Below, piece after piece: positions 6,275 through 39,416 of a stretch of 64,000 bases of DNA. Both the position numbers and the translations under genes were made by a program. The notes beneath the pieces are model-generated. The model did no database searches and was not told where the DNA came from. It was given only the letters and a program-made list of their open reading frames with translations. This DNA is from Ethanoligenens harbinense YUAN-3. Lineage in GTDB: Bacteria; Bacillota; Clostridia; Oscillospirales; Ethanoligenentaceae. The DNA lies in NCBI RefSeq assembly GCF_000178115.2, contig NC_014828.1, positions 1,333,310 through 1,397,309 on the forward strand. The letters are read 5' to 3'. How positions within the stretch are numbered: position 1 is the stretch's first letter; the number at the start of each line of letters is the position of its first letter.

Positions 6275-7012
6275 ATGGATTTTCATAACAAAACAGCAGT
6301 TGTCACAGGGGGGGCAACAGGAATCGGCAAGGCAGTCTGTCTGATGTTAGCTGGGCTTGGCTCCAATATCGTGCTGAATTATGCGCACTCGAAAGTGGAC
6401 GCACAGGAAACGGAGCGGGAAATTCAGAAACTGGGCGGTCGTGTGTTGGCAGTGCGAACGGATGTTTCTGATGACGGCCAAGTGCGGGGGATGATGGATC
6501 AGGCGGCGGAACGGTTCGGCGGTATTGATTTTCTGGTCAACAACGCCAGCATCACCGAACAAATCGAATTGCCGGATCTGGAGGCGGTTACGGATGCGGT
6601 CTGGGATAGCCTGATAGCGGTCAATGTCAAGGGCATGTTTTACTGTGCCCGCGCCGCCGCGTTGGTCATGAAAGCGCATGGCGGCTCCATTCTCAATATG
6701 GGAAGTATCGCCGGTATCACCGGCCGCGGTTCCTCCATGCCCTATGCAGTCTCCAAAGCCGCCGTGCATTGCCTGACAAAATCCCTCGCTCATGCGTTGG
6801 CTCCGGAAATCCGGGTAAACTGCATCGCGCCCGCCGCCGTATCTACTCGGTGGTGGAAGGGTGAGGAAGAAAAGATGATACGATTGAGTGGGCATTTGCC
6901 CTTGCAACGTATCTCCACCCCGGAGGACATCGCGGAACTGATTTGCGCGATCTTATCGCAAAAGTCCATAACCGGGCAAGTTATCAGCCCGAATAACGGG
7001 ATGGTCATTTAA
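6275..7012 (+). CDS. Short-chain dehydrogenase/reductase (SDR)
   Basis: Classical SDR of 245 aa. It has the cofactor motif TGGATGIG near residue 12, NNAS near residue 90, an active-site Ser (GSIAGI) with YAVSK, and the EIRVNCIAPAAVST loop. It resembles FabG-type 3-oxoacyl reductases, but a dedicated LysR regulator and no fab neighbours point to a specialised oxidoreductase of unknown substrate. GGAGG lies 8 nt before the ATG. Asp or basic residues after the first strand (YAHSK) leave NADPH versus NADH preference uncertain. Confidence 0.88.
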   Translation: MDFHNKTAVVTGGATGIGKAVCLMLAGLGSNIVLNYAHSKVDAQETEREIQKLGGRVLAVRTDVSDDGQVRGMMDQAAERFGGIDFLVNNASITEQIELPDLEAVTDAVWDSLIAVNVKGMFYCARAAALVMKAHGGSILNMGSIAGITGRGSSMPYAVSKAAVHCLTKSLAHALAPEIRVNCIAPAAVSTRWWKGEEEKMIRLSGHLPLQRISTPEDIAELICAILSQKSITGQVISPNNGMVI

Positions 7013-7046
7013 CAGAATAAAAACAAAATCGCTATTTTGATTCAGG

Positions 7047-7070
7047 GAGCGCCGTTGGGTGCTCTTTTTT
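7047..7070 (+). terminator. Rho-independent terminator after the SDR gene
   Basis: GAGCGCC pairs with GGTGCTC (7 bp with one G-U) around a GTTG loop and is followed by six T. It lies 34 nt after the SDR stop codon. Confidence 0.7.
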
Positions 7071-7080
7071 GTATGCCCAA

Positions 7081-7320
7081 AACCACTCGCCTGGCGAGTG
7101 GTTCAAAAGAGGCTTCTGCCGATGAACAGGGCACAAAAACTCCCCTTGCTACAACGGAAATACGGTTCGCCAACTGCATACAAGTAGCAAAAGGAAATTA
7201 TTCGAAATGAACGACATAAACAGTTTATCGCACATAAGTTGGAATTGCAAATATCACATTGTGTTTGCACCAGATTTTTGGAGAGAAGCGCCGTGAGATA
7301 GAGGAAGTCCGTGAGCTTTT
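7081..7320 (+). mobile_element. Remnant of an IS200/IS605-type element
   Basis: A near-perfect hairpin, AACCACTCGCC TGGCGAGTGGTT, begins the segment, like the left-end hairpins of IS200-family elements. About 100 nt later a frame starts MNDINSLSHISWNCKYHIVF, the normal N-terminus of a Y1 transposase TnpA. It breaks after the VFAP position and only short pieces (RREIEEVRELF) remain. It is not related closely to the intact 600-bp IS200 copies elsewhere in the window. Confidence 0.55.
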
Positions 7321-7330
7321 TTAATTCTCC

Positions 7331-7471
7331 GTAATCACGTTGGAAGTACTGGTGGCTGCCATCGGCGCGGGCCTTGCCGTGTGGGGCGTCATCAACCGTC
7401 TAGAAGGGTACGGGTCAGACAGTCCAGGCGCGAATGAGCGGGGCCCAGAAGGAAGCAAATATAGGATATAA
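7331..7471 (+). pseudogene. Maff2-like conjugative-element protein, fragment
   Basis: The frame reads EVLVAAIGAGLAVWGVINRL then EGYGSDSPGANE, which matches the single-TM core of the Maff2 family, small membrane proteins of Clostridia conjugative elements. Start and end are missing. It shows that an ICE once occupied this place, directly upstream of the toxin-like locus. Confidence 0.5.
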
Positions 7472-7818
7472 ATACAATATGATAGGTAGCCGGCGGACGT
7501 AGGGTATGATACAGATTTATTTATATGCACATCACATTTAAAGACCATCAGCTAAAAAATGGGCAAATGGTCTTTTTGCCCTGTATAAGCAAAAATTTCT
7601 TAGTCCAGTCACGGCGATGCCCGAGATATAAGCAGCGAAAATATTGTTGAATTTTAGAAAATCCTTTATTATTTAGTAATATTAGAAATAATATATAAAA
7701 TATCTTAAAAAAGATTGTTCATAAAATAGACATAAATTATGTATTGAATATTACACAAATATGGTAAAATTATTTCATCCCCTCGTTACATAGTATAAAT
7801 GCGACACAGGAGAAACAA
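7472..7818. other. AT-rich leader upstream of the secreted toxin-like gene
   Basis: No gene is seen. The stretch becomes very AT-rich from about 7650. Candidate promoter elements occur (TTGAAT near 7743 and TAAAAT near 7764), but the spacing is poor, so I do not call a promoter. A GACACAGGAG ribosome binding site ends the region. Confidence 0.3.
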
Positions 7819-9345
7819 ATGAAAAAGAAGGTAATAGCAGGATTTCGATCAGCAATAGCGGCTACATTAGCAACCATTATGATTTTTTCCAGTACGGTTC
7901 AAACTTCTGCCGAGCCCTTGAAATTGGAACATGCCCGCCAAAATCAAGGAGCTTCCACTATTTTACAGAAGGTGCCTGATAACCAAACACCCGGTACCAA
8001 TAGCACCGTAAGTGAAGCTGGCGTATCACCATCCGGCGAGCCAGGCGCGGCTTCTGGTATTACAAATACGAGTGATCAAAATCGCCGCACTTCAGGCACG
8101 GTGCCTTCCATACCCCAAAAGAGCAATGTTGTTCTTCCAACATCATCCACCAGTTTTAACACTGCTCTCGCGGGGCTCTTGATTTCTGACGATGCAACTT
8201 TGGATCAAGAGATGGTTGCGAAGAGCATGGAGCAGGTGCCAACAAACAGCGGCATTTGGGTTCCCGCATCAGCGAGAAACGATATTTTAAATCTGCTAAA
8301 TGCCGCCTCCGCCTATCCATTTACGATAGACGGAGATGGTTACATACATAAAATAAGGGATTCCATACTGACTTCTCAAAAATCTCTTACATTTTATAAT
8401 AAAATAGATGCGCTAATCTCTGGACAGGACCGTATAATCCTGTCTATATCCCCATATTATTGGAGTTATAACGAATCTTCGCACACCATCACAAAACAAG
8501 AGATATCGGACAGCGTATCCGTGGTTTTCCATGACAGTCGGATCATGATTTTAGATCGTGCGCACTTTGCACCAAAATCGCAAAATGAGTATCCTGCCCT
8601 TGCGATCTTCATGCTGAATACACTGTATAAAGATGGAACCGATTATACGTCGGCAGTGTCAAAGGAATTAAGCAGCATATTGGAAAAGGCTGCTTCTTCT
8701 TCGTCGAATTCAACTGTACTGCCATCTTCAAACAGTACTTCCAGCCAAGATTTTTCCAATGTGTCCGGCAATTCCAGCCAAACACAATCAGATGCATCTT
8801 CTGGAAATTCCTCCAGCCCCAAGAAAGATGCGGGCGATGATGGGAGCAATCGCGAACCAAGCGGCAGTCCCAAGACATCTGGTTCTTCGGTGGATAGTTC
8901 TTCTCAAATATCCACATCTGCAAGCAGTGCATCTCAGGTGTCTGGAAAAACGGAGAATGTGTTTTCTTCCGGCTCCGTGAGTTCTTCTGAAAGAGACAGC
9001 TTGCAGGACGAACAGAAAGATAAGACTTTCTCAAATACGGTTTCATCTTCCAGATCTGTTGATGTCAAAACGAATCCCCCAGCGAAAACAGATGCAGCGT
9101 CCGCTGTCTCCTCCGGCTCAAGTCAATTGTCGCCGCCTTCAAAATCGGGTTCAGATAGCAGTATACCCTCTGCTGCTTCTGATAATAGCAGTTCTAATTC
9201 TACGGGCAGCCGTTCATATCCCAGTGTTTCCTCACAGTCAAGCGGCAGTCAGGCGCCTTCTCAAGCAAGCAGTGCATCCAACAATTCGTCTGATAAAACA
9301 GACGATTCCTCAAGCACTAAGCACTGCCAGCACTTCAGCCGGTAA
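7819..9345 (+). CDS. Secreted polymorphic-toxin-like protein, 5' part before a frameshift
   Basis: The N-terminus (MKKKVIAGFRS, then AIAATLATIMIFSS, then TSA-EP) is a clear Sec signal peptide. After a short linker comes a globular domain of about 170 aa (FNTALAGLLISDD, SGIWVPASARND, LISGQDRIILSIS, LNTLYKDGTDYTSAVSKEL), then about 200 residues of Ser-rich low-complexity linker. The frame ends in SSSTKHCQHFSR. At the AGCACTAAGCACT junction one extra A at 9319-9320 causes the break, because removing it joins the Ser-rich text directly to the downstream frame (SSSTSTASTSAG). The original gene thus ran to 13069, about 1750 aa. I do not recognise the N-terminal domain. Confidence 0.75.
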   Translation: MKKKVIAGFRSAIAATLATIMIFSSTVQTSAEPLKLEHARQNQGASTILQKVPDNQTPGTNSTVSEAGVSPSGEPGAASGITNTSDQNRRTSGTVPSIPQKSNVVLPTSSTSFNTALAGLLISDDATLDQEMVAKSMEQVPTNSGIWVPASARNDILNLLNAASAYPFTIDGDGYIHKIRDSILTSQKSLTFYNKIDALISGQDRIILSISPYYWSYNESSHTITKQEISDSVSVVFHDSRIMILDRAHFAPKSQNEYPALAIFMLNTLYKDGTDYTSAVSKELSSILEKAASSSSNSTVLPSSNSTSSQDFSNVSGNSSQTQSDASSGNSSSPKKDAGDDGSNREPSGSPKTSGSSVDSSSQISTSASSASQVSGKTENVFSSGSVSSSERDSLQDEQKDKTFSNTVSSSRSVDVKTNPPAKTDAASAVSSGSSQLSPPSKSGSDSSIPSAASDNSSSNSTGSRSYPSVSSQSSGSQAPSQASSASNNSSDKTDDSSSTKHCQHFSR

Positions 9346-29072: not shown

Positions 29073-30113
29073 TCACAAATAACTGTTCAAAAAATGTTCT
29101 ATAACTGCCTGAGCAAGATTAACCGGAAGCGCATTACCTATAAGTTTATACTGCGTAGAATAGGCAAGCTTGAGGTTCTTTGCTATCTCTGCATATTTGT
29201 CAGGGAATCCTTGCAATCGGAATCCCTCTAATGGAGTAATCCTGCGTATAGGTTCCGTGTCCAAATTCACGCTTGGACGCACATACGGATCAGTACCGGC
29301 AATGTATGCTTCGCTAAAGTAATTATCCTGGTTTGCTCTATGCCATTTCGCCATTGTTGCAGTCAACGGTCTCGCTATTGCATTATCAATATTCACATCA
29401 CCTTCCCAGTTTGAAGGCTTAGTGAGAATCGTTCTTCGTGACCCCTGCGGTATGTAGTGTTTTGGATCGACTGCTCCTTTTTCAAGAAGATGCCACGTTG
29501 TAGGATATTTCGCGGTTTTTAAATCTACCACAGGCGGTTCTGAGATTCCTTTTGGCTCTGTCAGGTCCTTTCTGATTCCGCAGAAGAAGATACGGTTTCT
29601 CTTCTGTGGCAATCCGTAATCAGATGCCAACAAATTCCACGTGTGCAGAATATACCCGTTTCCGATCTCACAGAGAGCCTTTTTCATTTCATCAAGAAGG
29701 CTCCCGTTCTGTATGGTGTGAATTTTCTGAACATTCTCCAGGACAAAATATTTCGGCTTATAGTAATCAAGCATATCAAGGATATAAAAGAACAATTGTC
29801 CCCTTGGATCGTCAAAGCCCTTGCGATAGCCCACATTAGAAAACGACTGGCATGGAAATCCTGCAAACAGAATATCAAAGTCTGACACCATTATTCCGTT
29901 CGGATTTTTTTTAGTCTTGATATCTTTTACATCCTGTATCTTTTGAGTCCCCTCCGAAGAGCAGGCTACGTCGTAGAACTTCTGTGCGCTCTTATCAATC
30001 TCACAGTAGGCTACATGGCGAAATTCATATTTATTACTTTTTATTTGTTGTACGCCATAATAAAAACCTCCTATGCCCGCAAAACAGTCGAAAAATCTAA
30101 TTACTTCCTTCAT
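29073..30113 (-). CDS. DNA (cytosine-5) methyltransferase, LlaJI-type M2
   Basis: 346 aa. m5C motifs in order: I (FDCFAGIGGFYYG), IV (DILFAGFPCQSFSNVGYRKG) with the catalytic Cys, VI (VLENVQ), VIII (LPQKRNRIFFCGI), and IX/X (RRITPLEGFRLQGFP, YKLIGNALPV). A short target-recognition region lies between VIII and IX. The start overlaps the M1 stop by 4 nt (ATGA). Two different m5C enzymes are needed for an asymmetric site, one per strand. Confidence 0.92.
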   Translation of the reverse strand: MKEVIRFFDCFAGIGGFYYGVQQIKSNKYEFRHVAYCEIDKSAQKFYDVACSSEGTQKIQDVKDIKTKKNPNGIMVSDFDILFAGFPCQSFSNVGYRKGFDDPRGQLFFYILDMLDYYKPKYFVLENVQKIHTIQNGSLLDEMKKALCEIGNGYILHTWNLLASDYGLPQKRNRIFFCGIRKDLTEPKGISEPPVVDLKTAKYPTTWHLLEKGAVDPKHYIPQGSRRTILTKPSNWEGDVNIDNAIARPLTATMAKWHRANQDNYFSEAYIAGTDPYVRPSVNLDTEPIRRITPLEGFRLQGFPDKYAEIAKNLKLAYSTQYKLIGNALPVNLAQAVIEHFLNSYL

Positions 30114-31426
30114 GCTCTGTATATCCTCTCCAGCACTTGTTTAAGTCCGCTGGCCAACACTCTCGCCATAAGCGGACTGACTGCATTTCCGATTTGTCTG
30201 TACCATTCATTTGGGGAACCAAGGAAAAGGTAATCATCTGGAAAACCCTGAACTCTTGCTGCTTCTCGTGGTGACAGACCTCTTGCTTGGTACGGATGAA
30301 TGTACATATTGCAGTCATAATACATATGTGCCGTTATCGCTTTACATGGTTCCTCTGCAAGCAACTTGTCAAATTTGTCACGAAAAATATCTGCACGACT
30401 TTTATATGGGTTAATCTCTTGAATACTTTCTGCATCTGATTTTTCTCCCGGTCTTAAAAGCTGAAATATCTGTATATCGCGGTCATTATTGTATTTGCTC
30501 CTATGATTCAACAAGGGGACTCTGATAGGTAGTCCCTGATTAACCAGCCGTGCATATTCAGAGTCAGCGTCATGAAATCCTGCAACCGTATATCCCCACA
30601 CCGCATTTTCACTATATGTGCTATTTTTCATTGTTTTCGCTTCCAAGGCGGGCAAATCACATATTGCATCCCACAACGAGAGTGTTGTCCCCCTCATATG
30701 TCTCTGCAACTCATCCTTGAATAATTGATACAGTTCTCCAGAGATTCTCTGGTGTTCTTTTTTGATGCCCAGGATGAATGCCCTCTTCCTGTTTTGAGGG
30801 AAACCGAAATCTTTCGTGTTAAACACGAGCGGTTCACAGGCAATATAGCCCACTTTGCTAAAGTCCCGCTTGATTTTGCTGTACAACTGTAGTATACCTT
30901 CGACATTCTCCAAGAGAAATATGTCCGGTTTTGCTTGGCCTACTGAATGAACATAAAATCTGTAAAGCTCGTTTCGTTCATCATTTTCCTTTTTATGTTT
31001 ATTGACCACGCTAAATCCTTGACATGGAGGGCCCCCCACAACTACTGGAACATGAGGAAATATATCCTGGTTCACTATTTCACGGATGTCTTCGTGAATA
31101 ATACTTCCATCCGTAAGCCATGGCCTGTTAAATCTATATGTCAAAACAGCCGACTGATCCTTATCAACAGCAGCCACAGGCCTAAATCCTTCTTGCTCCA
31201 AGCCTACGGATAGTCCGCCTGCACCGCAGAACAAGTCAATGAAATCGTACTGAAAGTCTGCGAGATCAGGATTGCCGAACTTCACTCTATAGTAATCAAG
31301 CAGCTGACGCTGAATCTCATCCTTGTCAACTGATCTGTCAATTATTTTGATTTTTGAAAAAACGCTGTTTAGCTGATCAACGATGAATGTATCGTTATTT
31401 ATTGCTGTAATATTTTGCTTCAGCAT
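30110..31426 (-). CDS. DNA (cytosine-5) methyltransferase, LlaJI-type M1
   Basis: 438 aa m5C methyltransferase. Motif I is FIDLFCGAGGLSVGLEQEGF, IV VVGGPPCQGFSVVNKH, VI IFLLENVEG, VIII FGFPQNRKRAFILGI and IX/X LSPREAARVQGFPDDY with RQIGNAVSPL. Only distantly similar to M2, so it probably recognises the other strand of the same asymmetric site. First methyltransferase of the operon, 23 nt after the small HTH gene. Confidence 0.92.
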   Translation of the reverse strand: MLKQNITAINNDTFIVDQLNSVFSKIKIIDRSVDKDEIQRQLLDYYRVKFGNPDLADFQYDFIDLFCGAGGLSVGLEQEGFRPVAAVDKDQSAVLTYRFNRPWLTDGSIIHEDIREIVNQDIFPHVPVVVGGPPCQGFSVVNKHKKENDERNELYRFYVHSVGQAKPDIFLLENVEGILQLYSKIKRDFSKVGYIACEPLVFNTKDFGFPQNRKRAFILGIKKEHQRISGELYQLFKDELQRHMRGTTLSLWDAICDLPALEAKTMKNSTYSENAVWGYTVAGFHDADSEYARLVNQGLPIRVPLLNHRSKYNNDRDIQIFQLLRPGEKSDAESIQEINPYKSRADIFRDKFDKLLAEEPCKAITAHMYYDCNMYIHPYQARGLSPREAARVQGFPDDYLFLGSPNEWYRQIGNAVSPLMARVLASGLKQVLERIYRA

Positions 31427-31947: not shown

Positions 31948-32547
31948 AATCTCTGAGGGTTTAATTCCCCGCCGCTTGCGGCGTTAAATAAAAGGGTATA
32001 AAATTGGTATAACAAAAAACGAGAAGAGGGAAGAGATGAGTGAGTATATTCATAAATCTCACAATGTCTCAGTGCTGATGTACCATTTTGTATGCCCCGC
32101 TAAATATCGCAGAGCGATATTTAGCGAAGAAGTTACCAAAACACTCGTAGAAGTGTGCGGAGGAATAAGCGAACGATTTGAGATGTACTTTGTTGAAATA
32201 GGTACAGATAAAAATCATGTGCATTTTCTAATACAATCAGTACCCAAGTACAGCCCGACGAAAATAATCACAACAGTGAAAAGTATAACAGCACGAGAAA
32301 TATTTTCTAAACATCCGGAAGTAAAAAAACAATTATGGGGTGGAGAATTATGGACGGATGGATATTTTGTGAATACGGTAAGCAAATTTGGCAGTGAAGA
32401 AGTAATAAAAAGATACTTGCAGAATCAGGGTAAGACAGAGGAGTATAAACAACTTTACAAAGTTGAAACAATAGAACAACTCACGTTGTTTTAGCAAGGG
32501 TAGGGTTAGCATTGGATACCCCGCCGCTTGCGGCGGGGTGATTCATT
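31948..32547 (+). mobile_element. IS200-like element, copy 1 (identical to 62729-63328)
   Basis: 600 bp, the same length and sequence as the second copy. Both sit 3' of TATTT with no target duplication, as expected of single-strand IS200/IS605 transposition. Hairpins built on CCGCCGCTTGCGGCG lie near the left end and again at the right end. It encodes only TnpA, with no TnpB. Confidence 0.9.
32036..32494 (+). CDS. tnpA: IS200 transposase TnpA (Y1 HUH nuclease)
   Basis: 152 aa. HNVSVLMYHFVCPAKYRRAI is the N-terminal strand; the HUH motif lies in TDKNHVHFLIQSVP and the catalytic Tyr in the helix RYLQNQGKTEEY. Full length and apparently active. AGAGGGAAGAG lies before the ATG. Confidence 0.94.
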   Translation: MSEYIHKSHNVSVLMYHFVCPAKYRRAIFSEEVTKTLVEVCGGISERFEMYFVEIGTDKNHVHFLIQSVPKYSPTKIITTVKSITAREIFSKHPEVKKQLWGGELWTDGYFVNTVSKFGSEEVIKRYLQNQGKTEEYKQLYKVETIEQLTLF

Positions 32548-33059
32548 TATTCCTCATAGCTGCTTTCCTTGCAGGGTAAGTCGGCAAACGGGCCTCCCGT
32601 CCCAACTGACCGGCAAGCGACAACTGATTATATAGAAAAAGAGCTTCCGGAGATTGATGAAATCCTCGGAAGCCCTTTATTTCAAGCCTTTTTCGGCACA
32701 TCGCTGCCGGGTAAGGCTTTTTCTGTTTGTATCAAAGACGGTAAGAACATAGACCCTGCGTGTGGAAGCGTAACATTTTTCGAAGCCTTTTCTGATTATA
32801 ATGGAAATAGCGACCATTTTAGCCTATAATAAATTTCAAGAAGGTAAAAAAGAGGTGGATTATCGTGGCGATCATAGCTTGTCCCGAATGCGGTAACCGA
32901 AGATGATGTTACGCCGAACGATGACTTTAACATTGGCGGTAACAGAATCAGCTTGAAAACGCTCGACTTGAATCGAGACTGGAGTACCATAACGGAACAG
33001 TTGGATAATCTGTGCGAATAGCTGGCAAAAAGCATTTTGGCTCCATAGGAGGGTATTCT
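32548..33059 (+). other. Remnants of small genes upstream of the helicase
   Basis: An open frame at about 32569-32829 ends in FFGTSLPGKAFSVCIKDGKN and lacks a recognisable family. After it, GTGGCGATCATAGCTTGTCC reads AIIACPECGN, the start of a zinc-ribbon protein, and stops after a few codons. A further frame ends NRDWSTITEQLDNLCE. The last two may be the two ends of one gene with its middle deleted. I see no intact gene. Confidence 0.35.
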
Positions 33060-35519
33060 ATGCCAACAACGATGTTAAAAATAGATGAGGCAATTCAGGA
33101 AAGCAATAAAATTATTTGCCGCCAGATTAGTCGTCTGGGTGAATCTACTAGGGGCGAGGTTTCACAGGAAGTCTTAGAATCGCTAAGGCATTTTGTGGAG
33201 CATATCCTTCTTAAAGTTTATGCCAATGGCGATGATATAGAGGATACGCAGGAAAATGTTAAGGCGGCGGTCAAACACGCAAAGAGTAACTCTAATTTGA
33301 AACATTTGTCGCGGTTTCACCATTTTCTGCAGGTGTCTGTCTCTCATCGTGCTTTAAAAGAGCAGAATGCCGAACGGCTAATGCTGAAATATTATGAGTA
33401 TCTGTTGCGGATTAGGAATTTCTTGCACGATCGTTATTCCCTTGACGTGCTTGCTAACCTTGAGCAGTTCCCATTGGAAACAGACGAGAGTCTAACAGAG
33501 TATTATAAGAAAATCGCTGAAAAGGTTAGTGAATACAATACTCCGATACACGGCGAGTTCCGTTATGACCGCTTTTACGTGCAGAAAATCAAGCCGTTTT
33601 TTGTTGACGGTAAAATATATTATGAGGTAGCTTTTGTTCCAGCAAATGACAATGCGAGCAAAACTGATCGTATTATCGCTTTTACCGATATAGAGGTAAC
33701 GAGCTTTTATGCCGTAAAGTTTGCCATTGCCAACAACAACATAGAAATCCTCGGCAAACATATGCCCATCCGCATTATTGTGGACTGGGAAGTAAACATT
33801 CGGCCTTGCGAACTAAAAAACTTCACGGCAATTATTGAAAGGATGCCCAGAGAGTATGGTAAAGCTGAACAACGCGAACTTAGCCGATATCTAACTGAAA
33901 CCGGGCTTAGCCTATCGGAAATTGTTATGTTTTCTGATGAGGCATTTGCGGCAGTTCGTGACCGTATTGTGCCTAAAACAGAAGCCACGCACTTCTTTGA
34001 TTGCCTAGAAACTTGCAGAAATCTTATAAAGCGGGAAGCAGCCGGTAGCAATATACTGCGATATTTACTTCACCATATGACAAACCGTGTTCTCAAAGCC
34101 CAGTTCCATATAACATATACACAAATGCAAGAAATTCGTGGCTGCCATCTTTTGAGCGGACTTTATCTTGATTATAAATGCATTCCGTTCGATGAAATGC
34201 CGTTTTGCTCGGGTTTGAAAAGCCATGTTCCGAGCCTTTCGGATTTGTTTGAATGCCTTGATGCAAACGGTCGTGAGCACGAGATTTTAGCGTGGCTTAT
34301 AAAAAACAATACTGAACAGCAAGATATGCTTTTTACTCCGCTTGAAAAAAATGAAGACGGGAAATATAAACTCGGCAATTTTGACGATGTTGCTGCTCTC
34401 GTAAAAACGTATAATGAAAAACTTTACGATTCGCCAAAGCAGCAACTTCGTAAAATGATAATTAAGTACGACCATGTTTTTATTAACAGCTACAAGGAGG
34501 ATACGGTATCAATCATTAAGACGATTAAAGGGCTTACCAAAAGCGGTATTGACAACTACGCTAATTTGGTAAGCTACTGGATGCAAACTACCAGTCAAGT
34601 GAACAGCGAAGAGAAAAAGCAAGCCTTGCTCGGAATGTTTACCGACTCAAAAGCGGCTCTTGTTTATGGTTCGGCTGGAACAGGCAAGTCGTACTTGATT
34701 AACCATATCTCGCATTTATTTGCTGATAAATCAAGACTGTACTTAGCACAAACAAACCCCGCCGTAAATAATATGAGGCGAAAAGTTACAGCTTCAGCGG
34801 ATAGCACTTTTATGACAATATCGAAATTTACGAACCCATATTACAAAGGAAAAACCGAGTTTGACATTCTTATAATTGACGAGTGTAGTACGGTAAACAA
34901 CCATGATATGAGAACTATTCTCAGTCAAGCGAATTTCGAGTTGCTTGTTTTAGTCGGCGATACATATCAGATAGAGGCTATTGAGTTTGGCAACTGGTTT
35001 GATGCTGTGCGTAGTTTCTTGCCGGAAGCCTCTGTATGCGAGCTAACGAAGCCTTACAGAAGTGATAGCCCCGCTTTATTAAAACTTTGGAGCGATGTCC
35101 GAAAAATGGAAGATGATATTTTTGAACTCTTGCAAACATATAGCTACTCGGCAAATTTAGATGCGACAATTTTCACTCCCGCTGCTGAAAATGAGATAAT
35201 CCTATGCCTTAACTACGGTGGTCTGTATGGCATAAACAACATCAATCATTTTCTGCAAGAAAGCAATAATGGTAAGGAAATATGGTGGGGCGTTCAGCGT
35301 TATAAGGTGGGCGACCCGATTCTATTCAATGACTCGGCGGATAAGTTTTTTACACGAATTGATGACCAAGTTCCTGTTATTCATAACAATATGAAAGGTC
35401 GCATTATTGATTTTGAAGTGCTAAACGAGGGAAAATCAAACGAAAGTAGCCAATTCGATATTGAGATTGACAGACCTCTTATTGAAATGGATGCAAAAAT
35501 ATGGACTTCACGATTGTAA
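33060..35519 (+). pseudogene. SF1 (RecD/Pif1-like) helicase, main part before a frameshift
   Basis: About 820 aa. The first 500 residues are an unfamiliar helical region. Then come the helicase motifs I (ALVYGSAGTGKSYLINH), II (DILIIDECSTVNN), III (LLVLVGDTYQIEAIEFG) and IV (ELTKPYRSD). The frame ends early at WTSRL. The lost motifs V-VI are in the next frame, overlapping from 35501. AGGAGGG lies 6 nt before the ATG. One base appears missing in the A-run of GATGCAAAAATATGG; six A would restore DAKNMDFTIV. Possible roles are mobile-element or defence-related unwinding. Confidence 0.7.
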
Positions 35520-35863
35520 GGAATGCAGCCAACGGGAATTCTGTCATACGCTTTGCCGTAAACAAAAACAAAAGCACCGATGAAGACGATGACGGCGTTT
35601 CAAAAACACTCGTACCGTTCCAAATTGCTTACGCCGTATCTATTCACAAGGCACAGGGCTTGGAGTACGACTCTGTCAAAGTTATCATAACCGATGAGAT
35701 TGACGAATTGATAACTCACAGCATTTTTTACACCGCAATAACCCGTGCAAGAAAATCGCTGAAAATATACTGGACGCAATCTGTCGAAAAGAAAGTGCTT
35801 GAACGGATAGAACCGAAGGATAATGAAAAAGATGTGGCACTGCTAAAGCTAGAAATAATATGA
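35501..35863 (+). pseudogene. SF1 helicase, C-terminal part after the frameshift
   Basis: The frame reads MDFTIVRNAANGNSVIRFAV, then PFQIAYAVSIHKAQGLEYDS (motif V) and FYTAITRARKSLKIYW (motif VI), the RecD/UvrD-type C-terminus that the previous frame lacks. Alone it could not work. Whether the break is real or an error in a homopolymer cannot be told here. Confidence 0.7.
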
Positions 35864-36227: not shown

Positions 36228-36288
36228 TGGCGGAGGCGGAGAGATTCGAACTCTCGGACCCGATAAAGGGCTTACCGCATTTCGAGTC
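36228..36288 (-). tRNA. 3' fragment of a tRNA-Ser gene, probable att site
   Basis: The minus strand from the anticodon loop (CTCGAAA, anticodon CGA) to the CCA end is present. It includes a long variable arm, a T arm GAGAG-TTCGAAT-CTCTC and an acceptor end CGCCTCCGCCA. The 5' half is replaced by unrelated sequence. Such 3' pieces are left when an integrase uses a tRNA gene as attachment site and the tRNA is rebuilt at the other end. The partial minus-strand frame running into it (KKHPKGTREHSLPTT) could be an integrase tail. Confidence 0.6.
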
Positions 36289-36545
36289 GTTGGAAGCGAG
36301 TGCTCACGGGTGCCTTTGGGGTGCTTTTTGGTGCGCTGAAAACTGCCACAAACGTTGTATTTATGCGGGTTCACGGGCAACATCCCTGATGCGGACAGGG
36401 TTTGGAGAAAAGGGTGCCGAAAGCACGTTTCCGGGATAATTGTTAGCAAACTGTGAGCGGTTACCCTGTTTACTCAGTGTAGTCTTCATCGTAGCAACAC
36501 GCATCAACAGCTAAATGAGCCAAGATCGCAATATGTCGAAAAGTA

Positions 36546-36609
36546 ATTACGGATTGTCCGTAATTTTATTACGGAATTTGTTGACTTAATGCTTTGCCGT
36601 GGGTATAAT
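36546..36609 (+). promoter_or_regulatory. Canonical promoter with triple ATTACGGA operator
   Basis: TTGACT (36581-36586) and TATAAT (36604-36609) are 17 nt apart, an almost consensus sigma-A promoter, 23 nt before the AbiL-like ATPase start. Just upstream are three ATTACGGA half-sites: two form a perfect palindrome, ATTACGGA-TTG-TCCGTAAT, at 36546-36564, and a third is direct at 36568-36575. This suggests tight control of a strong promoter by a dimeric repressor, which I cannot name. Confidence 0.7.
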
Positions 36610-36631
36610 AACGGTAAAGGATGGTGGCACC

Positions 36632-37729
36632 ATGTTAAAACTGTTTGAGGTCACAGGGTTTAAAAATTTTGAGAATACCATTCGGTTGAATTTTTCCGAC
36701 GTCCGTGATTATAAATTCAACAATTCCTGCATCACTAACAGCCTGCTCAGTAAGACCATTGTTTACGGCAAAAACTCTGTCGGCAAGTCTAATTTGGGCT
36801 TGGCTCTTTTTGATATCGTCTCACACCTGACGACAAACAATGTGACGCCGGGCTTGTATGATTATTATCTGAATGTCAACAACAAGGCCGGATATGCAGA
36901 ATTTCATTATGTGTTTACGTTCGATAGCGGTGAGGTTGATTACCGCTATCGTAAAAATGATAAGCAGACTCTTGTTTATGAATCCGTTGCCATTGACGGC
37001 AGGCGCCTTTTTACTTACGATTACGGAGACAAACGCGGCGATCTGACCGGTCTCGAGGCATTGACCACAACATTGAATCTTTCCTTCCGCGGCACTGATT
37101 CCATTCTGAAATATGCTATCGCTAATTCTGCACTCTCGAACGATCATCCGCTTTATCAAATGCAGCATTTTGTGTCTCATATGCTATGGTTCCGCAGCCT
37201 GGATGAAAACCGTTATATCGGTTACAAGGCAGACAGTAAGGATTATTATGACTTCATTTTTCAGGGTGATATGCTCAAAGAGCTGGAGGCTTTTCTGCAC
37301 AACGCGGGGATTAAAGAAAATTTAGTTGCGAAGAAAGACGCCGACGGGAGTAAACGCCTGTATTTCGATACCAGAAAACCACTGCCGTTTTTTAAGGTGG
37401 CATCCAGCGGCACCAAAGCGCTTTATACATTTTTCTATTGGTACAAGACTTCTGTCGATGTTTCTCTGATGTTCATTGATGAGTTTGACGCGTTCTATCA
37501 TTATGAATTGGCCGAAACGCTTGTTGAGCTTTTGGAGCATATGCCCGGTTTCCAGACCATCCTCACTTCCCATAATACGAACCTGCTTTCCAATCGTATC
37601 ATGCGTCCGGACTGCTACTTCATTCTGACCGGAGAAAATCTTACTTCATTTGCCAATGCCACCGATCGGGAGCTTCGGGAGGGTCACAATCTGGAGAAGC
37701 TCTATATGAGCGGTGAATTCAATGGCTGA
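36632..37729 (+). CDS. AbiL-like AAA/ABC ATPase (AbiLi)
   Basis: 365 aa ABC-type ATPase of the OLD/AAA_15 group. It starts MLKLFEVTGFKNFENTIRLN, the usual N-terminal strand. Walker A is TIVYGKNSVGKSNLGLALFD; the C-terminal lobe has VASSGTKALYTFFYWY (signature region), VSLMFIDEFDAFYHYEL (Walker B) and ILTSHNTNLLSN (switch His). No TOPRIM domain is present, but the next gene supplies one. Together they match the two-gene abortive infection system AbiL, in which ATPase and nuclease-like partners are inferred to trigger growth arrest on phage infection. An upstream in-frame start at 36599 would lie inside the promoter, so the ATG at 36632 was chosen. Confidence 0.75.
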   Translation: MLKLFEVTGFKNFENTIRLNFSDVRDYKFNNSCITNSLLSKTIVYGKNSVGKSNLGLALFDIVSHLTTNNVTPGLYDYYLNVNNKAGYAEFHYVFTFDSGEVDYRYRKNDKQTLVYESVAIDGRRLFTYDYGDKRGDLTGLEALTTTLNLSFRGTDSILKYAIANSALSNDHPLYQMQHFVSHMLWFRSLDENRYIGYKADSKDYYDFIFQGDMLKELEAFLHNAGIKENLVAKKDADGSKRLYFDTRKPLPFFKVASSGTKALYTFFYWYKTSVDVSLMFIDEFDAFYHYELAETLVELLEHMPGFQTILTSHNTNLLSNRIMRPDCYFILTGENLTSFANATDRELREGHNLEKLYMSGEFNG

Positions 37730-38450
37730 GGAGAAACGGAAGATTCTCGTGCTGGTCGAGGGCGCGAAAACAGATGTCGCTTTGATGGAGCGGCTGCTAT
37801 CTGTTTATCAGATTGATATCAAATATGAGATCGTTTCCTATTGTACGAATATCTACACACTTTATCATGAAATGTTTGAGGACAACGATCCCGCTGATAT
37901 TGACTTGCTCCAACTGCTGAAGTCGCGTGAACCTGATCCGACAAAAAAGGCGCTGTTTGACGAATTCTACTCTGATATCCTTCTGATCTTTGATCTTGAT
38001 CCGCACGATCCCGGCTTCACATCGGAAAAGATCCGTGACATGGCAAAATACTTTGTGGAATCGTCCGATATGGGAAAGCTATACATCAATTATCCGATGG
38101 TGGAGGCATTCTATCACATGGCGTCCATACCCGACCCGGATTTTGATTCTTACTATGCTTCTCTTGACGAGCTGCTCGCCGGAGAATATAAGGCCCGTGT
38201 CAATCGGGAGAACCGGAATCACGATTATCGTAAGTTTGCCGCAACAAAGGAAGAATGCAATATTGTAATCGAGCAGAATATTAGCAAGTCGTGGCGGCTT
38301 GTCGCCAGCAATCCGGGAGAAGATCTGCTTCCGGCACAAGTCGAGATGCTCACCGCACAGCTAAATTCTATCCAGAGCGACAGGCGCGTTGCCGTGCTCA
38401 GCACCTGCGCATTTTTCATTCCGGAGTACAATCCTAAATTGATACGCTGA
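37722..38450 (+). CDS. AbiL-like TOPRIM partner (AbiLii)
   Basis: About 242 aa. The N-terminal KILVLVEGAKTDVALMERL carries the TOPRIM-like Glu, and YSDILLIFDLDPHDPGF the DxD pair, so a metal-dependent nuclease-type site is likely. VESSDMGKLYINYPMVEAFY is conserved in AbiLii/RloB-like proteins. The ATG overlaps the end of the ATPase gene by 8 nt; a GTG 9 nt upstream is a second option. Overlap and partner type indicate one functional unit. Confidence 0.72.
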   Translation: MAEEKRKILVLVEGAKTDVALMERLLSVYQIDIKYEIVSYCTNIYTLYHEMFEDNDPADIDLLQLLKSREPDPTKKALFDEFYSDILLIFDLDPHDPGFTSEKIRDMAKYFVESSDMGKLYINYPMVEAFYHMASIPDPDFDSYYASLDELLAGEYKARVNRENRNHDYRKFAATKEECNIVIEQNISKSWRLVASNPGEDLLPAQVEMLTAQLNSIQSDRRVAVLSTCAFFIPEYNPKLIR

Positions 38451-38940
38451 ATTTATGCCGTTGAATTAAGAAAAAACCTTGTCGATTTATATATTTATTT
38501 CTGAACAGAGAAAAAACTTTTACTTTTGTGAAGTTTTGAAGCATATCTCAAATTTTCATATCAATAGAGAACATATAAAATTCGGACGGCTGGTTGCTGA
38601 ATTTATGATTCTAACACATTCGATGACGAGAATGGTTAGAATGTGTTAGAATCTGTGTTAGAATGTCTGAAGTTCGAGAAACCCGAATTACTGTCGGCAC
38701 AAAAGTATGGGAATAGGTTCCTTTCTGTGATTCTGCCTTCGTCCAGCGCCTTGTGAGAAGGATCGTATCCGGTTGCGGCAGCGTATTCTCGATCTTGTTG
38801 TACACGCTCTCAATGAAATAGACGAGAAAAGGCATCAACGTTCATCAGCCCGCTTATCTTTACATTTTCCTCAGCCAGCGTCAGTATAATGGAAAATAGG
38901 CAGCCTGACGAGGGTAAAATATAAAATCATGTGATCATTT
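38451..38940. other. Gene-poor stretch after the AbiL-like pair
   Basis: No intact gene. The minus strand at about 38611-38838 has a short degenerate frame (NTLPQPDTILLTRRWTKAES) without a recognisable family. The 15-bp inverted repeat listed separately is the main structure. Confidence 0.35.
38607..38653. repeat. 15-bp inverted repeat GATTCTAACACATTC
   Basis: Perfect arms GATTCTAACACATTC and GAATGTGTTAGAATC are separated by 17 nt. A further direct GTGTTAGAAT follows at about 38656. There is no T-run, so this is not a usual terminator. It may be a protein binding site or an element end. Confidence 0.5.
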
Positions 38941-38970
38941 GGAACCATCTGGGAGGAAGGTTCCTTTTTT
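38941..38970 (+). terminator. Hairpin and T-run just before the HTH gene
   Basis: GGAACC and GGTTCC (6 bp) flank a 12-nt loop and are followed by six T, 17 nt before the next start codon. It could end upstream transcription or act as an attenuator in the leader of the downstream gene. Confidence 0.45.
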
Positions 38971-38987
38971 ATTTGCGGAGGTGCAGA

Positions 38988-39416
38988 ATGAAGATATCCA
39001 GCCGGAGCAGCAAGGCACCGTTCGTGATGGTGGATAAGGCCGTACTGATGGACGAAACGCTTTCCGTTTACGACAAAGCGGTCTACTGCATTCTTTGCGC
39101 CTATGCCGACAAAGACAGCCGGAGCTGTTTCCCATCTTATCAGACCATCGCACGCAAAGCTGGATGCTCGCGTCGCAAGGCAATTTCCGTCGTAGCCCAT
39201 CTGGAAGAACTCAGCCTAATCGAGAAAAAAGAACAGCGCAATTCAATCGGAGACAGTACCAGTAATCTGTACACGGTTAAGCCGATGAATGTGCCGGCGG
39301 AACAGAGCGATGAAGACAATGCACTAACTGATGAACAACAGGATTTGCCAAGTGAATATGAGATACCCGCACAATGCTTGTTCAAACAAAAACAGTTAGA
39401 TGGCTCACAAGGTTAA
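38988..39416 (+). CDS. Helix-turn-helix (HTH_36/RepA-type) protein
   Basis: 142 aa. It reads VYDKAVYCILCAYADKDSRS, CFPSYQTIARKAGCSRRKAI and HLEELSLIEKKEQR: a winged HTH of the type found in plasmid and ICE replication initiators and phage replisome proteins. The C-terminus is acidic and short, without a further replication domain, so a truncated initiator or a regulator are both possible. GGAGGTG lies 5 nt before the ATG. Confidence 0.7.
   Translation: MKISSRSSKAPFVMVDKAVLMDETLSVYDKAVYCILCAYADKDSRSCFPSYQTIARKAGCSRRKAISVVAHLEELSLIEKKEQRNSIGDSTSNLYTVKPMNVPAEQSDEDNALTDEQQDLPSEYEIPAQCLFKQKQLDGSQG

Follow-up and report, generated by a model that had tools for sequence, protein, structure and literature searches.

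In Ethanoligenens harbinense YUAN-3, two overlapping genes that an initial annotation had taken for an AbiL-like pair stand behind a strong promoter with a palindrome upstream of it, and no regulator gene is obvious nearby; the question raised by this locus is what recognizes the palindrome and with what consequence for the two genes. The window is the whole stretch of 64,000 nucleotides of contig NC_014828.1 that was analyzed, and A and B denote the two genes and their products. The relevant features, in coordinates of the window, are:

36536..36552, no strand: distal and degenerate second copy, TCGAAA-AGTAA-TTACGG, which matches 10 of the 12 core bases and lies 22 bp upstream of the main palindrome
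36546..36564, no strand: the palindrome as initially annotated, ATTACGGA-TTG-TCCGTAAT, made up of the right half of the distal copy and the left half of the main palindrome
36558..36574, no strand: main palindrome, CCGTAA-TTTTA-TTACGG, the proposed operator core, with perfect arms out to 36557-36575
36568-36575: third of the initially annotated half-sites, ATTACGGA
36581..36586, + strand: -35 box TTGACT, from reading the sequence and a promoter scan
36604..36609, + strand: -10 box TATAAT, from reading the sequence and the promoter scan, with a 17-bp spacer to the -35 box
36632..37729, + strand: gene A, 365 aa, AAA_21/Rad50-like ABC ATPase, PDC-M12A (profile matches, structure model)
37722..38450, + strand: gene B, 242 aa, PDC-M12B, with a Toprim-like E...DxD motif (profile matches, alignment)

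The promoter and its half-sites

The near-consensus promoter of the initial annotation, TTGACT-17-TATAAT, is borne out at 36581-36609, where it scores 11/12 and ranks at the top of the 10 promoter-like sites in 36400-38600 (shuffles give 4.6). The main palindrome sits directly 5' of its -35 box, and the promoter region as a whole displays four alternating CCGTAA/TTACGG half-sites with an 11-bp period, three of which had been recognized before. The palindrome and third direct half-site of that earlier reading are both present as sequences; its pairing of the first and second half-sites is not conserved, and the relatives instead keep the second and third, i.e., 36558-36574. The half-site ATTACGGA occurs eight times in the window, where 1.6 copies would be expected and none of 100 shuffles attains that number; three of the eight are the promoter half-sites.

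The operon and its affinities

Genes A and B overlap by 8 bp. Among the PADLOC models, A is matched by PDC-M12A at 1e-122 (residues 1-364 of 365), AbiLi at 2.3e-35, and AriA at 1.1e-28, and against Pfam it scores 142.5 bits with AAA_21 (cut-off 27), while B is matched by PDC-M12B at 4.7e-113; no NCBIfam model was found for either protein at 0.001. The same families recur in the relatives, with PDC-M12A being the best family for all seven distant A homologs scanned and PDC-M12B being matched by 10 of 10 diverse B proteins. The Toprim-like motif of B (E13, D91, D93) is invariant in these 10, and D93 is changed in one of 16 clostridial B relatives (L010). Weak matches to RloB were recovered in five of the 10 diverse B proteins and to AbiLii in two of 10 B relatives (best 1.5e-05), and neither these 10 nor the window's B gave a DUF4435 match at 0.1. 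A profile search for helix-turn-helix families found none in A or B. On the structural side, the A profile reaches the AriA chains of the PDB at 0.0018, and the AlphaFold2 model of A (pLDDT 70.5) resembles the heads of Rad50, SMC, RecF, and AriA, with a hairpin-bound Rad50 head at rank 50; the B model (pLDDT 73.4) recovers nothing at E 0.001 in a PDB fold search, its weak matches including topoisomerase II.

Judged by these profiles, the operon is the PADLOC candidate system PDC-M12 and not AbiL proper, with both models matched near full length and the A-then-B order shared. The literature searched, which did not extend to subscription papers and preprints, yielded no use of the PDC-M12 name, no promoter element, and no demonstrated function, and this is weak evidence of absence. 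The Lactococcus AbiL system likewise joins an ATPase (AbiLi) to a Toprim-type partner (AbiLii, RloB/Toprim), and A does match AbiLi; the earlier AbiL-like identification nevertheless gives way to PDC-M12, with 1e-122 for PDC-M12A against 2e-35 for AbiLi, and we reject AbiL membership because AbiLii does not match the window's B even at 0.1 and the palindrome was not found at the AbiLii-type loci examined. A search of the own genome for AbiLii gave no match at 1e-8. PARIS, which combines the ABC ATPase AriA with the DUF4435 Toprim nuclease AriB and features an anti-restriction protein trigger and tRNA cleavage, also shares an AAA_21 ATPase and a Toprim-like partner with the operon; membership in it is rejected because the window's B lacks DUF4435. 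Lamassu/DdmABC has a comparable Rad50/SMC-like ATPase with different partner genes; the hairpin palindrome to which it is reported to respond (PMC10586767) lies in the invader, whereas that of PDC-M12 lies in its own promoter.

Conservation of the palindrome in PDC-M12 relatives

A genome scan with A recovered 27 loci, and in 25 of them with the A start, taken together with the window, the core matches at 12/12 in 20 and at 11/12 in six, with TTG(A/C) starting 6 bases past the core in 25 of the 26 and 7 bases past it in the remaining one. More distant A homologs were obtained from 11 of 391 genomes of the class (the own genome included), 14 plasmid records, three phage records, all Vibrio, and 17 IMG/VR loci, the last being retrieved by an alignment query after a scan with the single A protein gave no relative. 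In a sample of the phylum, M12A is present in two of 398 genomes, one of these being the window's own. Removing 13 near-duplicates and L083, which has no upstream sequence, from the 63 loci with an A start leaves 49, each of which was scored by its matches to the 12 core bases, taking the best within 130 bp upstream of A (for L084 a T-centered 10/12 match was used instead of another 10/12 match in the same span). The best score is 12 in 30 loci, 11 in 13, 10 in four, and eight in two; hence, at least 10/12 is reached in 47 of 49 (at least 11 in 43), a score that random windows drawn from these loci attain in four of 943 cases and shuffles in 31 of 4900. The two loci with 8/12 in the 130-bp span are L046, where a 10/12 match is visible by eye farther upstream, and L048, which has a half palindrome.

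The core lies at the M12A promoter in Bacillota, among them Clostridia and Holdemania; in Fusobacterium; on gammaproteobacterial plasmids of Escherichia, Raoultella, Pectobacterium, and Acinetobacter; and in one Vibrio filamentous phage. One of the plasmids, of 4.0 kb and with just four annotated genes including A and B, has it at 10/12. The core is likewise found at the promoter of the contigs L103 and L109, probable Bacteroidota whose hosts are assigned only by -7 boxes that we take to be of the Bacteroidota type. The distal copy, at exactly 22 bp upstream, scores at least eight in 10 of the 49 loci, in which A is 65-100% identical to the window's A; this degenerate copy is mainly a feature of near relatives. 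Offsets of +13 and -13 have mean core scores of 5.3 and 4.8 against 4.5 at -22, with scores of at least eight in one and zero loci against 10; we take these raised means as half-site self-overlap. It is the comparison of sequences across loci that indicates the anatomy of the site, its conservation, its association with PDC-M12, and its adjacency to the promoter. The initial view of a defense pair behind a strong promoter with an operator is upheld insofar as an ATPase and a partner gene, a near-consensus promoter, and a conserved operator-like element are all present.

The center and outer arms

The five central bases of the palindrome are 97% A/T, and AAAAA and TTTTT centers are about equally used (14 and 15 of 47 loci), as expected of a double-stranded, directionless site. 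Outside the 17-bp core, at least five extra contiguous complementary bases are seen in 14 of 47 loci (L046 and L048 omitted) and at least seven in 11 of 47, compared with 0.37% and 0%, respectively, when flanks are paired across loci; in 5000 permutations, the number of loci with at least five extra pairs averages 0.47 and never exceeds four. The arm sequences vary among loci, and a compensatory pair sets L027 apart from L028, the two A proteins being 81% identical. In L107, perfect 20-bp arms flank a 5-base center just upstream of A, with a -10-like TACAAT inside the right arm. Such complementary yet variable arms hint at selection for a hairpin or cruciform, or else at perfection of the palindrome by template switching, which in replication can perfect palindromes without selection.

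These arms bring in the possibility, unlikely in our estimate, that the palindrome is a structural element, namely, a DNA hairpin or cruciform that would serve as a substrate of the sensor or on which the Rad50-like ATPase would load, transcriptional control being secondary or absent. The core, however, is kept in sequence and not just in symmetry, 20 of the 47 loci lack any extra pair, the window's site has a single one, and the arms could have an unselected origin in template switching. The excess of paired arms, their differing sequences, and the compensatory pair are what would be predicted of such an element, and it further accords with the resemblance of A to Rad50 heads, one of them hairpin-bound, and with the reported response of Vibrio Lamassu to hairpin-forming palindromes (PMC10586767).

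Placement relative to the promoter

The -10 box was picked by hand in 28 of the 49 loci, with L094 offering two candidates that place the center at -37 or -50. The center of the palindrome lies at -50 to -52, abutting the -35 box, in 16 of the 28; at -34 to -39 in five; and at -29/-30, overlapping the core promoter, in another five (E. coli, Raoultella, two Acinetobacter, and L107), while the remaining two have a Bacteroidota-type promoter. Some two helical turns separate the -50 to -52 class from the -29/-30 class. Lying at or abutting the core promoter, the site would allow a bound protein to hinder the polymerase, which supports its being an operator. A divergent promoter formed from mirrored -35 boxes was looked for by eye in L020, L025, and L028, and no consistent -10 was found. 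The constant placement beside the -35 box in the 16 loci would also suit an activator site, from which an operon product or another protein upstream of the -35 aids RNA polymerase; we hold this to be improbable, given that the promoters of those 16 loci are near consensus and that the site lies inside the core promoter in five of the 28.

Specificity of the palindrome

In the search of the genome for further sites called for by the initial annotation, ATTACGGANNNTCCGTAAT matched nowhere else in the 3,008,576 bp when up to two mismatches were allowed, and CCGTAAN5TTACGG is present in one exact copy, at the M12A promoter. Inexact copies of the latter (up to two mismatches) show no enrichment in the own genome, numbering 80 where the reversed control has 146. 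Across the 391 class genomes, the exact core followed by N6 and TTG occurs at the M12A promoter of G000, G235, G313, and G057, and elsewhere at one place each in G235 and G288, where the centers are not A/T-only; by a rough estimate, these two matches are about what chance would give. A regulon of the palindrome finds no support, given the single exact core in the own genome and the two class matches away from M12A. The same counts weigh against a host-encoded transcription factor, rather than an operon product, as the protein binding the palindrome, as does the sharing of the core by several phyla, 4-kb plasmids, and a phage; such a factor, which would account for the absence of a regulator gene beside the operon, seems to us quite improbable. 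A role as terminator or insulator ahead of the operon is very improbable, for although a scan marks 36557-36575 as terminator-like, the stem of the relatives has no T tract after it (e.g., L013, L024, L027), and terminators are not known to keep one sequence across phyla.

At 30 AbiLii loci with about 1.5 kb upstream covered, the best core score is 10 (two loci); in 20 AbiLii places with more upstream sequence, all of which include an upstream or ATPase-sized ORF (at least 316 aa) and the region upstream of that ORF, the best is again 10 (two of 20), neither at the ATPase promoter. The palindrome was not seen at PARIS-type DUF4435 loci, which number four only, too few for a firm statement (best core score 9). 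On this evidence from sequence, the palindrome is a mark of PDC-M12 and not of AbiL: the conservation upstream of related AbiL loci by which the initial annotation would have judged it is absent at AbiLii-type loci and strong in PDC-M12. Matches in IMG/VR were also considered as viral trigger sites and rejected; the core with TTGAC is found in two stretches, coding-like by eye and not M12 promoters, and CCGTAAAAAAATTACGG in 69, of which 64 are without an M12A match and five are at M12A (L121, L125, L139, L145, L148).

A probable operon partner of the site

Among the 47 loci that allow B to be assessed (L018 and L049 do not), 11 have a broken or partly deleted B that has left remnants, and in every one of these A is intact with a core of 11-12 (L007, L009, L012, L013, L019, L022, L024, L025, L027, L044, and L045), with the qualification that several of these are MAGs, in which assembly errors are possible, and that L019, L022, and L044 have fewer than 650 bases after A. 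B was unrecognized in L048 and L094. The converse state is seen in L108, where A is broken, B is intact, and the core is 10/12. Four loci in which A lacks its N-terminus fall outside the 49: L030, with A broken, B intact, and the core lost (best 9); L031, with A truncated, no B match, and a core of 11/12; and L050 and L106, both cut by the locus ends. A search with B matched nine of the 391 class genomes, including G071, which has no A match at 1e-30 and in which A is cut by the contig end. The evidence tilts towards A as the partner of the site, although the numbers are small and most loci were found through A, a route that favors loci with an intact A. The intact B beside a broken A in L108 and L030 implies that loss of A does not make B strictly lethal.

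A proposed autoregulatory circuit

Taking these observations together, we propose, with confidence slightly above even, that the palindrome is the operator of a self-regulating PDC-M12 operon, to which A would bind as a repressor, by itself or in complex with B, and that infection would free B. An autoregulatory operator best explains why the site accompanies the two genes to 4-kb plasmids and why the host genome holds no other exact copy of it; the 11 loci with a broken B that keep A and the site make A the probable binder; and that no regulator was seen nearby is best explained by its being encoded inside the operon. The layout, with an overlapping two-gene operon and a conserved palindrome at its promoter, is toxin-antitoxin-like. 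We infer protein binding at the palindrome, A as the binder, repression, B as the effector, and a phage trigger as the components of the following scheme. A, most likely, alone or with B, would occupy CCGTAA-W5-TTACGG and thereby limit the adjacent promoter, as an antitoxin does in a toxin-antitoxin operon, such that A and the potentially harmful Toprim-like B are kept in balance. Upon infection, A would release B, as AriA frees AriB in PARIS (PMC11455837), and with A off the operator expression of the operon would rise. AAA proteins also neutralize their Toprim effectors in the toxin-antitoxin-like AAA:TOPRIM_OLD pairs described with NetFlax, for which the accessible part of the report mentions no operator (PMC10440598). 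It is plausible that tight repression spares the host from killing, as the initial annotation had supposed.

Several observations count against such a circuit. Neither A nor B has a recognizable helix-turn-helix family; the arms vary yet stay complementary, which a plain operator would not need; the center ranges from -29 to -52; the clostridial promoter already comes close to the consensus; and there are L108 and L030. Further, deletion of either PARIS gene is reported to be non-toxic, which is not the behavior of a toxin-antitoxin pair (PMC9122126). A more speculative and rather unlikely version would have the sensor ATPase double as the repressor and read the palindrome at its promoter in part as a hairpin or cruciform extruded from the DNA, making the operator a built-in decoy of the trigger. 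If so, phage DNA structures or DNA mimics that pull the sensor away would both free the Toprim-like effector and induce the operon, and one Rad50-like protein would join structure sensing to gene control on chromosomes, 4-kb plasmids, and filamentous phages.

Genomic neighborhood and mobile carriers

Just upstream of the operon, 36235-36255 (- strand) holds a 21-base piece of a tRNA 3'-end, presumably serine-like as judged by eye, which might be the boundary of an integrated element; no second copy was found in the genome with up to one mismatch, and ARAGORN found no tRNAs in the window. Farther upstream are a large helicase gene (33012-35863, + strand; PADLOC PDC-S53, 3.7e-301, profile 1-777 of 900), which looks split by a frame break, an ORF in another frame at 35501-35863 having a UvrD_C_2 match; two adjoining, overlapping DNA cytosine methyltransferase-like genes (29073-31426, - strand); and, close to the latter, an IS200-like transposase (32036-32494). 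The methyltransferases, transposase, and helicase look like a defense island. Downstream of the operon, an HTH_36 (replication-initiator-like) ORF at 38931-39413 (+ strand) is not likely to be its regulator.

In the Escherichia and Raoultella plasmids of 4.0-4.4 kb (L084, L085, L089, L092), the M12 pair takes up about half of the length, a share that suggests a strong benefit or addiction. Vibrio phage 10N.286.54.F2_PE002 (Tubulavirales, filamentous; L091) carries the pair with the palindrome at 6862-8728, and its record labels the ATPase 'Paris_II__AAA_21'. In the Ruminococcus albus KH2T6 contig, B is present a second time ahead of the operon, as a partial copy (L028:179-403; 94% identical, residues 168-242).

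Implications

The palindrome provides a sequence signature for PDC-M12, and its presence on 4-kb Escherichia plasmids makes the regulation of the system testable in E. coli. An element shared across phyla at the promoter of such an ATPase-Toprim pair would be a direct clue to the target that the pair binds.
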